Shown here: piece by piece, positions 25,226 to 29,317 of the stretch
How the letters are laid out: the number at the start of each line of letters is the position of its first letter
Position numbering within the stretch: position 1 is the first letter of the stretch
Assembly (NCBI RefSeq): GCF_900105135.1
Contig: NZ_LT629741.1
Coordinates: 806,001-870,000 of the forward strand
From: Gramella sp. MAR_2010_147
GTDB taxonomy: Bacteria; Bacteroidota; Bacteroidia; Flavobacteriales; Flavobacteriaceae
Length of the DNA stretch: 64,000 nucleotides
Reading direction: 5' to 3'
Program-made: the position numbers and the translations under genes
The notes under the pieces: model-generated
Databases searched by the model: none
What the model saw: the letters and a program-made list of their open reading frames with translations, nothing else
Told to the model about the DNA's origin: nothing

Positions 25226-26077
25226 TTAGTTAATTTTTATTTCGATAATATTTGCGGGACCACCTAAAGATTCATTAGAAATAAATATTCGCCCTGACGG
25301 ACTAAAACATATACCTTCCGGCTGTGTAAATTCTGCAGGGTCTAATAAATGTAAATCTTTAATACTTCCGTTACGATTTAATATCAGTACTTTTTGGAAC
25401 TCAGCATCCAGAACATATAGATCATTGGTCACCGGCGAAAATGAAAGATCTGATGGTCTAATTAGTTTTCTTGGATTGTCTGTCTTAAGAACATCGAATT
25501 TTGGATCATTATACATGATCTTAAGAACAGGTTCTTTTGCCAGTCTCTTTGTCTTGGGATTAAAAGAATAAATTCCCTTATAACCACTACTATTATCAAG
25601 GTTTCTGTCTTTTACAGATAACCATAGGTTTCCATCCCTACTCGCAGCAAGACCTTCAATATTATTTCGATACTCAAATTCTAACTCTACAATCTCTGCT
25701 TGATCTTCCACTCCATCCAGGCTTTTTACGTTAAAAAGTTTTCCATTACTTTCTGCTATCCAAAATTCACCATCCTGAAAACCTAATGCTTCATAATCGC
25801 CAGCATCTGCAAACTTATATTCTTTAATAATTTTTGAGCTTGAAAGGTCATATATAAATATTATCCCGTCCTCATCCTGTACACAGGCCATTTTATTATC
25901 GCCCATCCAGTAAATCCCTGAAACTTCATCCAATTCCTGTGGTAATTCCCATTTGTTTAAAATTTCATAGGATTTTGTCGCATCATCAAAATCATAATCA
26001 TTCTTCTCATAAATAGCATATACTATTCCGGCCAGAATTAATGTAAATGCGATAATACCGATTGCCCATTTATTCAT
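25226..26077 (-). CDS. SdiA-regulated-type beta-propeller protein
   Basis: This 283-residue protein is anchored by an N-terminal helix (WAIGIIAFTLILAGIVYAIY) and continues as an extracytoplasmic repeat domain. Repeats include WELPQELDEVSGIYWMGDNK, GDYEALGFQDGEFWIAESNG, EGLAASRDGNLWLSVKDR, RPSDLSFSPVTNDLYVLDAE and QPEGICFSPSGRIFISNE. This is the YjiK/SdiA-regulated propeller pattern. No catalytic residues are evident, and function is unknown. It faces the dipeptidase gene tail to tail. Confidence 0.8.
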   Translation of the reverse strand: MNKWAIGIIAFTLILAGIVYAIYEKNDYDFDDATKSYEILNKWELPQELDEVSGIYWMGDNKMACVQDEDGIIFIYDLSSSKIIKEYKFADAGDYEALGFQDGEFWIAESNGKLFNVKSLDGVEDQAEIVELEFEYRNNIEGLAASRDGNLWLSVKDRNLDNSSGYKGIYSFNPKTKRLAKEPVLKIMYNDPKFDVLKTDNPRKLIRPSDLSFSPVTNDLYVLDAEFQKVLILNRNGSIKDLHLLDPAEFTQPEGICFSPSGRIFISNESLGGPANIIEIKIN

Positions 26078-26269
26078 GAAGTTATTTTTAGGATTTTAAA
26101 ATTACATTAATGAGTATCGGTCTCAAAAAGATTAACAATACTTTGAAGACTCTGCCTATTTTATTTAAATCACTGAAAATCAGTATAAGTTAAAAATATG
26201 TTAAAATAGTACCTTTTATAACATAGTACTGTAACGCTTTGTTTTTCTGATCGTCTATTAAATAGAAAC

Positions 26270-26496
26270 AATCATTAAAATCATCAATTATGACAACTTT
26301 AGTAAGCAACACAAAAAGCAGAAAATCATTTATGAATACCGAAGCAAATTCTGAAAGAACAGGTTTCATTAATCGAAGAAGATTCGCCTAAGCGAAAAAA
26401 GTAAAATTCATCAATCATCAAAATCATCAATTATGACAACTTTAGTAAGTAACACAAAAAGCAGAAAATCATTTATGAGTACTGAAGCAAGTACTG
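26270..26496 (+). repeat. Tandem duplication containing micro-ORFs 1 and 2
   Basis: Bases 26270-26353 and 26413-26496 are near-identical direct copies with an offset of 143 bases. Each includes an ATCAT-rich leader, the start codon and about 20 codons. The two differ by scattered substitutions and no indels, so the reading frame is kept. Confidence 0.85.
26290..26391 (+). CDS. Micro-ORF 1, basic 33-residue peptide
   Basis: Starts MTTLVSNTKSRKSFM and ends INRRRFA. The first 15 residues are identical to those of micro-ORF 2, and both end in an RRRF-x motif although the middle differs, which points to selection on the peptide. The leader before the ATG (AAAATCATCAATT) is repeated before micro-ORF 2 and resembles the leaders of the other two. 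It has no signal peptide, double-glycine motif or cysteine. It is the first gene of a four-member array ended by a terminator. I do not recognise the family; a toxin, a modified-peptide precursor or a nucleic-acid-binding micropeptide are all open. Confidence 0.6.
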   Translation: MTTLVSNTKSRKSFMNTEANSERTGFINRRRFA

Positions 26497-26534
26497 AAAC
26501 ATCAAGACTTTTCCGAAGAAGAAGATTTTCATAA
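26433..26534 (+). CDS. Micro-ORF 2, basic 33-residue peptide
   Basis: A paralogue of micro-ORF 1 with the same length and the same first 15 residues, then STEASTETSRLFRRRRFS. Substitutions between the copies are partly silent (AGC/AGT for Ser6) and the C-terminal arginine cluster is kept, as expected of a translated gene. The copies arose by a tandem duplication of about 143 bases. Function is unknown. Confidence 0.6.
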   Translation: MTTLVSNTKSRKSFMSTEASTETSRLFRRRRFS

Positions 26535-26563
26535 ATAGTTTAAATTATCAAAAATCATCAACC

Positions 26564-26689
26564 ATGAAATCATTAGACAGTATCCTACAGGATTTTGGAA
26601 ACAGTAAAGAAGGTATTACTCATCGCCGACCTTTTTTGAACTTAAAGGAAACCAATGCTTATATTAATTCTTATAACCATAGGGCCTAA
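26564..26689 (+). CDS. Micro-ORF 3, 41-residue peptide
   Basis: Starts MKSLDSILQDFGNSKEG, then ITHRRPFLNLKETNAY and a YNHRA end. It is related to micro-ORF 4: both have xSLxxxIQxF-like starts and a THR(R/K)PFLN(L/V)K core, while the DNA between them has diverged. An amphipathic N-terminal helix followed by a basic core suggests a leader-core layout, but no maturation enzyme is adjacent. It is preceded by the ATCATCAACC form of the shared leader. Confidence 0.6.
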   Translation: MKSLDSILQDFGNSKEGITHRRPFLNLKETNAYINSYNHRA

Positions 26690-26723
26690 CATAGATTATT
26701 CATCAATCAAAATCTCATCAATC

Positions 26724-26858
26724 ATGACATCTTTATCAAATTTTATTCAGGAATTCAGTATTGGGAATGAACCAAATTTAACTCATAGAAAACCTTTCCT
26801 GAATGTAAAAAGTTCTAGCGGACATGCGTGTTGGTACCACCGCAGGCGACATATCTAG
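26724..26858 (+). CDS. Micro-ORF 4, 44-residue peptide with Cys-Trp-Tyr and His/Arg tail
   Basis: Starts MTSLSNFIQEFSIGNEP, keeps LTHRKPFLNVK in common with micro-ORF 3, and ends SSSGHACWYHRRRHI. The tail has the only cysteine of the array and a His/Arg cluster. The frame is also open upstream to 26655, but the ATG at 26724 follows the shared ATCATCAATC leader and aligns with micro-ORF 3. A hairpin terminator lies 39 bases after the stop. Function is unknown. Confidence 0.6.
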   Translation: MTSLSNFIQEFSIGNEPNLTHRKPFLNVKSSSGHACWYHRRRHI

Positions 26859-26896: not shown

Positions 26897-26932
26897 AGCC
26901 GGTAAATTCATAATTACCGGCTTTAAATTTTG
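26897..26932 (+). terminator. Terminator closing the micro-ORF array
   Basis: AGCCGGTAA pairs with TTACCGGCT (9 bp, 8-base loop) and is followed by TTAAATTTT. It separates the micro-ORFs from the PBP1A gene. Confidence 0.7.
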
Positions 26933-27010: not shown

Positions 27011-29317
27011 ATGTTAGCAACGATAAAAAGGAACCCCAGGCTTAAATGGGCTCTGGTCATTTTAATTAGTTTAATAGCTCTATTCTTTTTATTTTTTGGG
27101 AGCATCTATTTTGGTATGTGGGGAAAGATCCCCAGCACTAAAGAACTCACCGAACTTGAACAAAATAAAGCAACACAGGTACTTGCCTCTAATGGCGATC
27201 TCATTGGGAAATTTTATATTTTTGACAGACAACCCATAGAATTCGACCAACTCCCCACCCATTTAATCCAGGCCCTTATTGCAACTGAAGATGCAAGGTT
27301 CTATGAACATGACGGGATAGATAATCGTAGTCTCCTTAGAGTTTTCTTTAAATCTATTCTGCTTCAGGATGATTCTGCCGGTGGAGGAAGTACTATTACA
27401 TTGCAACTTGCTAAGAATATTTACGGTCGCCGTGACTTTGGAATGTTTGGAATAGTGATTAACAAAATGCAAGAGGCCGTGATAGCCAAAAGGCTTGAAA
27501 ACATCTATTCCAAAGACGAAATTATTCAACTATATTTTAACACGGTTCCTTTTAGCGATAATACTTATGGAATTGAAAGTGCTTCACTGAAATTCTTTAA
27601 TAAGCATACTTCTGAATTGAATATGGAAGAGGCTGCTGTTTTGGTTGGAATGCTAAAGGCAAGTCATTATTATAATCCAAGAATTTTCCCTGAACGCAGT
27701 CGTTTGCGAAGAGATGTTGTTCTCATGCAAATGGCTAAATATAACTATCTAAGTGAAACGGAAGCTGAAGAAGCTAAGATGAGACCGCTTATCCTGGATT
27801 ATAAAAGTTATAGCAATAACAAAGGAGTTGCGCCATATTTTAGAGAACAGGTTAGAAAAGATGTGAGTAAAATACTAGATACTCTTAAGAATACAGATGG
27901 CCAGAAATATAATATCTATCGGGATGGTCTTATAGTTCATACCACGCTTAACTACGAAATGCAATTACTGGCTGAAGAAGCTATGATAGAGCATATGTCT
28001 GAATTGCAAGTGGAACATGAAAATTCTTATGGAAATTATGCTCCCTGGATACGCAACAAAGATATTTTAAATGCTGCCATTAAGAGATCTGAAAGATATC
28101 AGGATCTTCAAAAAGAAGGGTTTGATGAAAGCGAAATTTTAAAAAAAATGGAGCAAAAGCATCCTACAGAACTTTTTGAATATACAGGGATGGAAACCAG
28201 AAATGTAAGTTCTATAGATAGTATTTCCCATTATCTAAAATTCCTTAATTCCGGTTTATTAGCCGTAAGCCCTGAAAATGGTGCAGTACAGGCCTGGGTT
28301 GGTGGTGTGGATTTTAGATTTTTTAAATACGATCATGTGGCACAAAGTAAAAGACAGGTTGGTTCTACGTTTAAACCTTTTGTATATACTGCTGCCCTTG
28401 AAAATGGAATGGATCCCTGCTCCTATTTCTCTGTTAGGGAAGTAACCTACGAAGATGGATGGACACCTTCAAACTCATCTTCAGAAGGTGATGATCCTAA
28501 TATGAATTATAACCTTAAAACTGCTTTAAGCAGATCTATGAACACCATTGCGGTAAAAGTACTTATGGAAACTGGAATTGGGAATGTTATCAGTCAGGCC
28601 CGTAGCATGGGGATCGAATCTGATCTCCCTCAAGTACCCTCTATTGCCTTAGGTACGGCTTCACTCAATCTAGGGGAACTTACATCAGCCTATACCAGTT
28701 TTGTTAATAACGGTCATTATTCAAAACCATATTATATCACTAAAATTGAAGATGGGAAAGGTAATTTGCTCGCCGAATTCAAACCTGAAGTTTCCAAAAC
28801 CAGAGCGTTTTCTGAAGATACCAGAAAAATTATGCTAAATATGATGCAGGCTACGGTAAATGAAGGAACAGCAACAAGACTACGATATAAATATGGTCTT
28901 CAAAATGATATTGCAGGTAAAACCGGAACAACACAGGACAATAAAGATGGTTGGTTTGTAGGTATTACACCCCAACTTGTTTGTGTGACCTGGGTGGGTG
29001 CAGACGATCATAGAATTGGATTCAGAAATACAGCTATTGGCCAGGGTGCGAACTCAGCTTTACCTGTATTTGCAAAACTGATGCAGAAAATGAACGCAGA
29101 TTCAGAGTTCAACAATATCACTAACGCAAAATTTCAAACATTGCCTTCAGACCTGGCTGAATTGATGGAATGCCCTCCCGAAGAACGGGATAACTTTTTT
29201 GAGAGACTCTTTTCCGGAAAAAAGGATAAGCGATCTAATAACAATCAAGGCAACAAAAAAGAAGAGAAAAAGAAAGGCTTCTTTAAACGTCTATTTGGTG
29301 GAAAAGACGATAATTAG
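27011..29317 (+). CDS. Penicillin-binding protein 1A (class A PBP)
   Basis: A bifunctional peptidoglycan synthase. I start it at the ATG at 27011 (MLATIKRNPRLKW), 10 codons inside the longest frame, because it follows an AT-rich leader and gives the usual short cytoplasmic tail before the membrane helix at about 12-36. The glycosyltransferase domain has ATEDARFYEHDGID and GGSTITLQLAKN near 85-130. The transpeptidase domain has STFKP (active Ser), SRSMNT and GKTGTTQD. The C-terminal tail is highly basic (KKEEKKKGFFKRLFGGKDD). At 768 residues it is normal for the family. It ends overlapping the convergent helicase gene. Confidence 0.93.
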   Translation: MLATIKRNPRLKWALVILISLIALFFLFFGSIYFGMWGKIPSTKELTELEQNKATQVLASNGDLIGKFYIFDRQPIEFDQLPTHLIQALIATEDARFYEHDGIDNRSLLRVFFKSILLQDDSAGGGSTITLQLAKNIYGRRDFGMFGIVINKMQEAVIAKRLENIYSKDEIIQLYFNTVPFSDNTYGIESASLKFFNKHTSELNMEEAAVLVGMLKASHYYNPRIFPERSRLRRDVVLMQMAKYNYLSETEAEEAKMRPLILDYKSYSNNKGVAPYFREQVRKDVSKILDTLKNTDGQKYNIYRDGLIVHTTLNYEMQLLAEEAMIEHMSELQVEHENSYGNYAPWIRNKDILNAAIKRSERYQDLQKEGFDESEILKKMEQKHPTELFEYTGMETRNVSSIDSISHYLKFLNSGLLAVSPENGAVQAWVGGVDFRFFKYDHVAQSKRQVGSTFKPFVYTAALENGMDPCSYFSVREVTYEDGWTPSNSSSEGDDPNMNYNLKTALSRSMNTIAVKVLMETGIGNVISQARSMGIESDLPQVPSIALGTASLNLGELTSAYTSFVNNGHYSKPYYITKIEDGKGNLLAEFKPEVSKTRAFSEDTRKIMLNMMQATVNEGTATRLRYKYGLQNDIAGKTGTTQDNKDGWFVGITPQLVCVTWVGADDHRIGFRNTAIGQGANSALPVFAKLMQKMNADSEFNNITNAKFQTLPSDLAELMECPPEERDNFFERLFSGKKDKRSNNNQGNKKEEKKKGFFKRLFGGKDDN

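Follow-up and report, generated by a model that had tools for sequence, protein, structure and literature searches.

The window analyzed here is a 64,000-nucleotide (nt) stretch of the genome of Gramella sp. MAR_2010_147 (contig NZ_LT629741.1, positions 806,001 to 870,000), and it holds an array of four tandem micro-open reading frames (ORFs) behind a promoter of the extracytoplasmic function (ECF) sigma factor type. These ORFs represent a real, newly described, and widely conserved family of micropeptides under an ECF-type promoter, with a function that can be inferred only in outline. The family and its promoter are well supported by comparisons of sequence. Gene finders leave the array region mostly blank, and limited searches of the open-access literature found no published account of such peptides.

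Conservation of the micro-ORF family

An earlier, sequence-only reading of this DNA had described four tandem ORFs of 33, 33, 41, and 44 codons, and all four were confirmed, on the forward strand. Micro-ORFs 1 and 2 (26290 to 26391 and 26433 to 26534; 33 amino acids [aa] each) are of type A, with the form NTKxRKSFMNTEA...RRRFA. Micro-ORF 3 (26564 to 26689; type B1) encodes 41 aa, with 44 aa in most relatives, and micro-ORF 4 (26724 to 26858; type B2) encodes 44 aa, although its mechanical frame opens earlier, at 26655; type B contains THRRPFLNLK. The likeness within pairs that had been reported is there, in that ORFs 1 and 2 have identical first 15 residues and ORFs 3 and 4 have S-L, Q-[DE]-F, and THR-x-PFLN-x-K in common. 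What had been overlooked is the kinship of the two pairs, as well as a promoter block at 26189 to 26257. Types A and B both contain R-[RK]-x-F-[LM]-N and have a basic-aromatic end, and comparison of the type B profile with the type A profile gave a probability of 94.9. Judged by sequence, the two pairs are one family.

Conservation of the frames, on which that reading had staked its proposal, was found throughout the genus. Related micro-ORFs occupy the same syntenic gap in all 24 Christiangramia (Gramella) genomes, this one included (one contig ends inside the gap), and in 59 genomes searched, every match to ORF 4 (23 matches) or ORF 1 (19 matches) was within the genus. Arrays carry zero to four short (type A) and zero to two long (type B) units by a filter that misses some divergent units, such as those at loci L065 and L070. 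Changes at codon positions 1, 2, and 3 numbered 25, 33, and 54 in the 33-aa type A units (6 nearest pairs; one-sided binomial P = 8e-4) and 64, 57, and 126 in the 44-aa type B1 units (7 nearest pairs; P = 8e-9), in pairs selected on DNA identity. A separate ratio of nonsynonymous to synonymous change (pN/pS) of 0.25 is biased because its pairs were selected on protein identity. The third-position excess upholds the earlier claim, and the micro-ORFs as selected coding sequence are supported on these grounds.

Conservation is uneven along the peptides. In the long Christiangramia peptides (type B), residues 1 to 29 are conserved and the C-terminal third is variable, and in type A the variable stretch is residues 21 to 28. 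Likeness in the type A stretch was 0.67 within genomes (23 pairs) versus 0.25 between genomes (442 pairs), a pattern consistent with gene conversion or recent duplication. A single-protein search with ORF 4 found no relatives, and an alignment query found 33, the named ones being Christiangramia/Gramella except for one Salegentibacter.

The promoter and the ECF sigma factor

In an alignment of the regions upstream of the array at 24 loci, four features are conserved in the same order. They are two GTTAA boxes (26189 to 26193 and 26200 to 26204, present in most rows and also in other genera); TAGTACC and CATAGTAC, which form the direct-repeat block TAGTACC-N8-CATAGTAC (26207 to 26229), a candidate activator site; and an ECF-sigma-type promoter, TGTAAC-N16-CGTCTA (26230 to 26257), with its −35 box at 26230 to 26235 and its −10 box at 26252 to 26257, all on the forward strand. 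L067 is misaligned at this block, yet its genome carries the site, and L070 differs by one base before GTAAC. The promoter motif was found once in the window, versus 0.03 expected by chance, and ends 32 nt before the first start codon. We take boxes of the TGTAAC/CGTC type at 16 to 17 nt to be an ECF-like promoter form. SM6 promoters of Flavobacterium psychrophilum also carry a CGT box (PMC9723704).

The motif also connects the array to an ECF sigma factor gene. TGTAAC-N15-17-CGTCTW occurs at six sites in this genome, against three for a reversed control; two lie inside genes, and four lie directly before the start codons of the array, of an ECF sigma factor gene, of a DUF4870 protein gene, and of a gene for a 74-aa exported-type protein without a Pfam match. 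The sigma factor has Sigma70_r2 and r4 domains, and the gene behind it encodes a small putative membrane protein. An orthologue was detected at E ≤ 1e-60 in 16 of the 24 genus genomes, and at all 16 loci GTAAC-N15-18-CGTC stands 36 to 42 nt before the aligned gene start, with 0 matches in 109,558 control bases. Among 149 genomes searched, 64 of other genera had a match at E ≤ 1e-45; the 29 best-scoring loci were read, and the motif is present at 24 of them, against 1 control match in 193,204 bases; by eye, the other five have AGTC at the expected CGTC position.

Across the 24 genus genomes, TGTAAC-N16-17-CGTCTW gave 102 sites versus 36 for the reversed control. The genes that recur behind it encode a DUF4870 protein (15 genomes), a CarboxypepD_reg protein (13), a 70- to 74-aa protein (11), and an ATP-binding cassette (ABC) ATPase (3), counted by sequence likeness over a part of the 102 sites, some read twice, with one member of each scanned for domains. 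The 70- to 74-aa protein is of exported type and mostly has a Cys-rich end (L130, L166, L177, L181, and others). The motif before the sigma gene, which suggests autoregulation, and that before the array together outline a candidate ECF regulon. The TAGTAC repeat is present in all nine array-promoter rows, and GTAC occurs within the last 30 nt in none of the 65 other motif rows, which suggests an additional control site at the array; the rows were split by the repeat block itself, some sites were counted twice, and products were read separately.

Distribution in Flavobacteriaceae

An exact search of 84,980 species genomes for CATAGTACTGTAAC-N14-17-GTCTWT returned at least 117 stretches. The 80 loci read from these include 29 named genera, counted by hand, and the remaining listed loci belong to Flavobacteriaceae or Flavobacteriales, one to Bacteroidia, and two to Bacteroidetes metagenome-assembled genomes. 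A slightly looser element, sought in a sample spread across the family, was present in 99 of 397 genomes, covering 70 of the 237 genera, with 0 for the reversed control; a stricter one was found in 8 of 395 genomes of the order, these being 8 of 76 in the array's own family and 0 of 319 in others (split counted by hand). The 118 element loci represent 107 distinct sites, and the spacer is 16 nt at all 107, under a pattern that permitted 13 to 16 nt and not 17.

What follows the element is, in most cases, micro-ORFs. For the 95 distinct sites that have 700 nt of sequence downstream, a lenient tail pattern matched at 90 (opposite strand, 13) and a strict pattern at 84 (opposite strand, 0). The strict pattern counted one unit at 21 sites, two to four at 64, and none at 10. 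One locus, L237, is accepted by the lenient filter although no unit there is convincing by eye. The commonest product is a 28-aa peptide, MRTLNSNQLT...TKSYxWNSKRRYR (102 units, 63 sites), which ends in W-N-x-K-R-R-Y/F. Because the pattern W[NDT]-x(1,2)-[KR]-R-[YF] was used to choose these units, their tail figures partly reflect selection. The N-terminal start is free of it and is conserved (T3, 97%; L4, 92%; N7, 92%; R2, 87%; duplicates included). All 102 units have A at −3, the leader is A-rich at −10 to −14, and differences at codon positions 1, 2, and 3 numbered 112, 119, and 215 (31 pairs). Eleven duplicate sites are present in the 28-aa start and leader counts, in the hydropathy counts, and in counts over 111 loci and are absent from the distinct-site counts.

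Other lineages have other forms. Eudoraea- and Maribacter-type loci encode a 37-aa form, and Algibacter-type loci have an additional 44-aa last unit, for which an alignment query found 47 relatives. Profile comparisons gave 97.2 for type B versus the Salegentibacter type, 95.2 for type A versus the Salegentibacter type, 91.3 for type A versus the 28-aa form, and 83.3, in the tail only, for the Salegentibacter type versus the 28-aa form. These used selected sequences (8 Salegentibacter-type units and 12 of 98 distinct 28-aa sequences). On these values, types A and B, the Salegentibacter type, and the 28-aa form are kin; type B versus the Algibacter 44-aa form scored 8.7, which does not support kinship. 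The type B profile alone matched in 12 of 397 family genomes, the array's own and one genus mate included, and 3 of the 12 matches (G085, G217, and G291) have internal stops and look like chance. Since that profile reaches few genomes, the claim of breadth rests on the promoter element and the profile comparisons.

Two further observations concern how these loci appear in public data. Contigs C17 and C19 of genome G077 (L120 and L121) both end inside an array, as though the repeat broke the assembly. Three 44-aa array peptides (P0058, P0071, and P0080) are named Transposase in a public source with no domain listed, so the name is probably an error.

Properties of the peptides, leaders, and transcript

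The 28-aa peptides have a net charge of +4 or more (mean, +5.7), and 268 leniently chosen units average +5.6, the lowest being −2. No strongly hydrophobic stretch was found in 81 genus units, in which the top 15-residue mean hydropathy was 0.65. An AlphaFold model of ORF 4 has mostly low confidence (mean predicted local distance difference test score, 60.8) and two short helices. Pfam and NCBIfam gave no match for ORFs 1 to 3 and Pfam gave one sub-threshold, unrelated match for ORF 4; Pfam had none for the 28-, 29-, 31-, 37-, and 44-aa forms. Rfam gave a single sub-threshold match, located outside the array, and thus no Pfam, NCBIfam, or Rfam family was above cut-off for the array.

Of the leader type that had been reported for the four ORFs, ATCATCAANNATG stands in exact form before ORFs 1 to 3, and ORF 4 has a variant, CTCATCAATC. 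There are seven exact copies genome-wide, and the four away from the array precede frames of 2, 3, 3, and 19 aa. ATCATCAA as a genome-wide mark of such genes was dropped after whole-genome leader counts. The closing terminator was likewise found, as an intrinsic-terminator-like hairpin at 26897 to 26922 on the forward strand (9 pairs, then a T-rich tail); in the region scanned there were two such sites versus 0.5 expected in shuffles. RNA folding in this species was ordinary, with z scores of −0.66 for the whole array and −0.27 to −1.09 per unit.

Genomic surroundings

At the DNA level, the array is single copy in its own genome. Upstream lies a gene for an SdiA-regulated/NHL propeller protein (25226 to 26077, reverse strand; Pfam NHL and SdiA-regulated), and downstream lies one for a PBP1A-type protein (27014 to 29317, forward strand); as the earlier reading had stated, the array has no gene for a processing enzyme, a transporter, or immunity beside it. 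A conserved block, CAAAAAGATTAACAATACTTTGA (26124 to 26146), beside the start of the propeller gene in the 24-locus alignment is possibly that gene's own divergent promoter. Both flanks are kept, with micro-ORFs between, at L118, L119, and L124, in two other genera; the setting was seen only in Christiangramia, Salegentibacter, and one further genus, over loci of which many have limited flanks. The commonest neighbors at the 80 loci are a divergent 242-aa protein (29 loci), a helicase that is also encoded near the window's array (21), and a protein that we named ExbD-like by eye (20).

Five genus genomes (G012, G015, G016, G021, and G022) have a second type B site (L073, L078, L079, L086, and L088), flanked by an AraC-family regulator gene and by a gene for a peptidase that we take to be of M3 type. 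The site has another conserved dyad, GGGGAWTWWTCCCC, and in four of the five a further peptide of 32 to 34 aa, containing RLAETV[VI]IR, follows.

Discussion

The explanation we prefer, and hold with moderate confidence, is that the array is an ECF-controlled, multicopy operon of cytoplasmic cationic micropeptides that bind an acidic partner. In response to a signal from the envelope or from nutrient supply, the ECF factor would start transcription about 25 to 30 nt before ORF 1, with the help of another factor that binds the TAGTAC repeat specific to arrays. Each micro-ORF would be translated from its own A-rich leader, and copy number would therefore set the peptide dose. The products would be soluble, largely unstructured, cationic peptides in the cytoplasm that act stoichiometrically via the conserved basic-aromatic tail, which would most likely bind an acidic surface (RNA, the ribosome, or a signaling protein) and so adjust a stress response. 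A stoichiometric binder would fit the presence of several copies behind a single regulated promoter. Control by this ECF factor, translation, cytoplasmic location, and the binding mechanism are all things that we infer. In a more far-reaching form, copy-number-tunable micropeptides, mostly below the length that routine annotation catches, would be a principal ECF output across the family, reprogramming translation or signaling in trans via W-N-x-K-R-R-Y/F, with a TAGTAC activator integrating a second signal; we regard this as conceivable, though rather unlikely.

Several observations weigh against the preferred explanation. The sigma factor genes mostly have a 17-nt spacer versus 16 nt at the arrays, and 8 of the 24 genus genomes lack an orthologue at E ≤ 1e-60 though arrays are present (2 of the 8 are less than 75% complete). 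Among 149 family genomes, the sigma factor (E ≤ 1e-45) and the element occur together in 23, the element alone in 16, the sigma factor alone in 42, and neither in 68, a weak association (Fisher P = 0.038) for which both cut-offs are arbitrary. The second array site has no ECF motif nearby in the five genomes. Most Christiangramia type A units lack the tail Trp. Finally, at 5 of 111 element loci an exported-type protein follows, without micro-ORFs. At L239, L271, L296, and L365 this protein is MKTTEPKTN-like and has 151 to 188 aa, and at L280 it has 109 aa.

The closest known systems are the DUF1127 small proteins, the SM6 promoters of F. psychrophilum, and SigP of Porphyromonas gingivalis. In Rhodobacter sphaeroides, an alternative-sigma (RpoHI/RpoHII) promoter precedes ccaF1, with four tandem small RNA (sRNA) units behind it and then a terminator (PMC10253847); CcaF1, a DUF1127 protein, acts by binding RNA (PMC10253847), and another DUF1127 protein binds the kinase PhoR (PMC12501420). 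DUF1127 proteins (CcaF1, those of Agrobacterium, and E. coli YjiS) are likewise very small, but they belong to another phylum, and the units behind ccaF1 are sRNAs whereas those of the array are coding. The DUF1127 Pfam domain had no match above cut-off in the array ORFs or the 28-, 29-, 31-, 37-, and 44-aa forms, and the likeness would be one of logic rather than of sequence or membership. The SM6 (ECF) promoters of F. psychrophilum serve, in the published selection, genes for an ECF/anti-sigma pair and an ABC ATPase as well as an RNA, and they are induced at low nutrients (PMC9723704), which suggests by analogy an inducing condition for the array. As described there, the selection also includes genes of the type IX secretion system, none of which was recognised among the array-motif sites read; the two sets are likened by description. 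Also compared by description alone, SigP of Porphyromonas gingivalis resembles the proposed factor in being of the ECF class, and its regulon is envelope related (PMC4800418).

The ccaF1 arrangement is the model for the idea that the transcript itself acts, as tandem regulatory RNAs cut between units, with peptides minor or incidental. Tandem near-identical units, an alternative-sigma-type promoter, and a terminator recall CcsR1-4 behind ccaF1, and Rfp11 RNA of F. psychrophilum stands behind an ECF-type SM6 promoter (PMC9723704). We nevertheless consider the idea unlikely: the fold is not unusual, the sole Rfam match is outside the array, and changes concentrate at third codon positions. RNA structure as the function of the array was rejected on the ordinary z scores of this species. 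No more probable is that the ORFs encode ribosomally synthesized and post-translationally modified peptide (RiPP) precursors, perhaps antimicrobial, whose core is matured by an enzyme encoded elsewhere. The conserved first 29 residues and variable C-terminal third of the long peptides look like leader and core, type A has its own variable stretch, the units come in multiple copies, an ABC ATPase has the same promoter motif in three genomes, and Lys17 (87 of 102 units) and Trp21 of the 28-aa form have the Lys-x3-Trp spacing of streptide. Yet the end of the 28-aa peptides is conserved rather than diversified, the Trp is missing in most type A units, and the array keeps a constant place throughout the genus. 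The sequence-only reading had proposed looking for variable copy number and linked enzymes; the number does vary, but no recurrent modifying enzyme was recognised among 542 neighbors of the 80 loci, of which 12 have 3 kb on both sides.

A family of intracellular or contact toxins, of the type I-like kind, is more doubtful still, since small, cationic, multicopy products are set against the lack of a hydrophobic membrane-spanning stretch of the type I kind and of a recognised adjacent antitoxin gene, and against conservation in one place throughout the genus. It is barely plausible that the ORFs are leader peptides or an attenuator for the PBP1A gene, which the array directly precedes in Christiangramia and Salegentibacter, because the array has its own terminator-like hairpin and a PBP1A-like neighbor occurs at 7 of 80 loci (64 of which have at least 1.5 kb downstream), with other genes elsewhere. 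On that last count a functional tie to PBP1A was rejected. Among the peptide toxins, modified-peptide precursors, and stress micropeptides offered by the sequence-only reading, stress micropeptides are the best supported on sequence, owing to the ECF-type promoter common to the array and the ECF sigma gene, whereas toxins are weakly supported and RiPPs have no recognised linked enzyme in the contexts examined.

Taken together, exact matches to the ECF-type element in 70 of the 237 genera sampled indicate a gene family that has partly or wholly escaped annotation, its commonest form being only 28 codons and its 44-aa forms being listed as hypothetical proteins. The promoter and the tail motif provide a ready tag for finding such genes, and the array motif defines a candidate ECF regulon. 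The role of stress micropeptides in Bacteroidota thereby becomes testable in culturable marine species.
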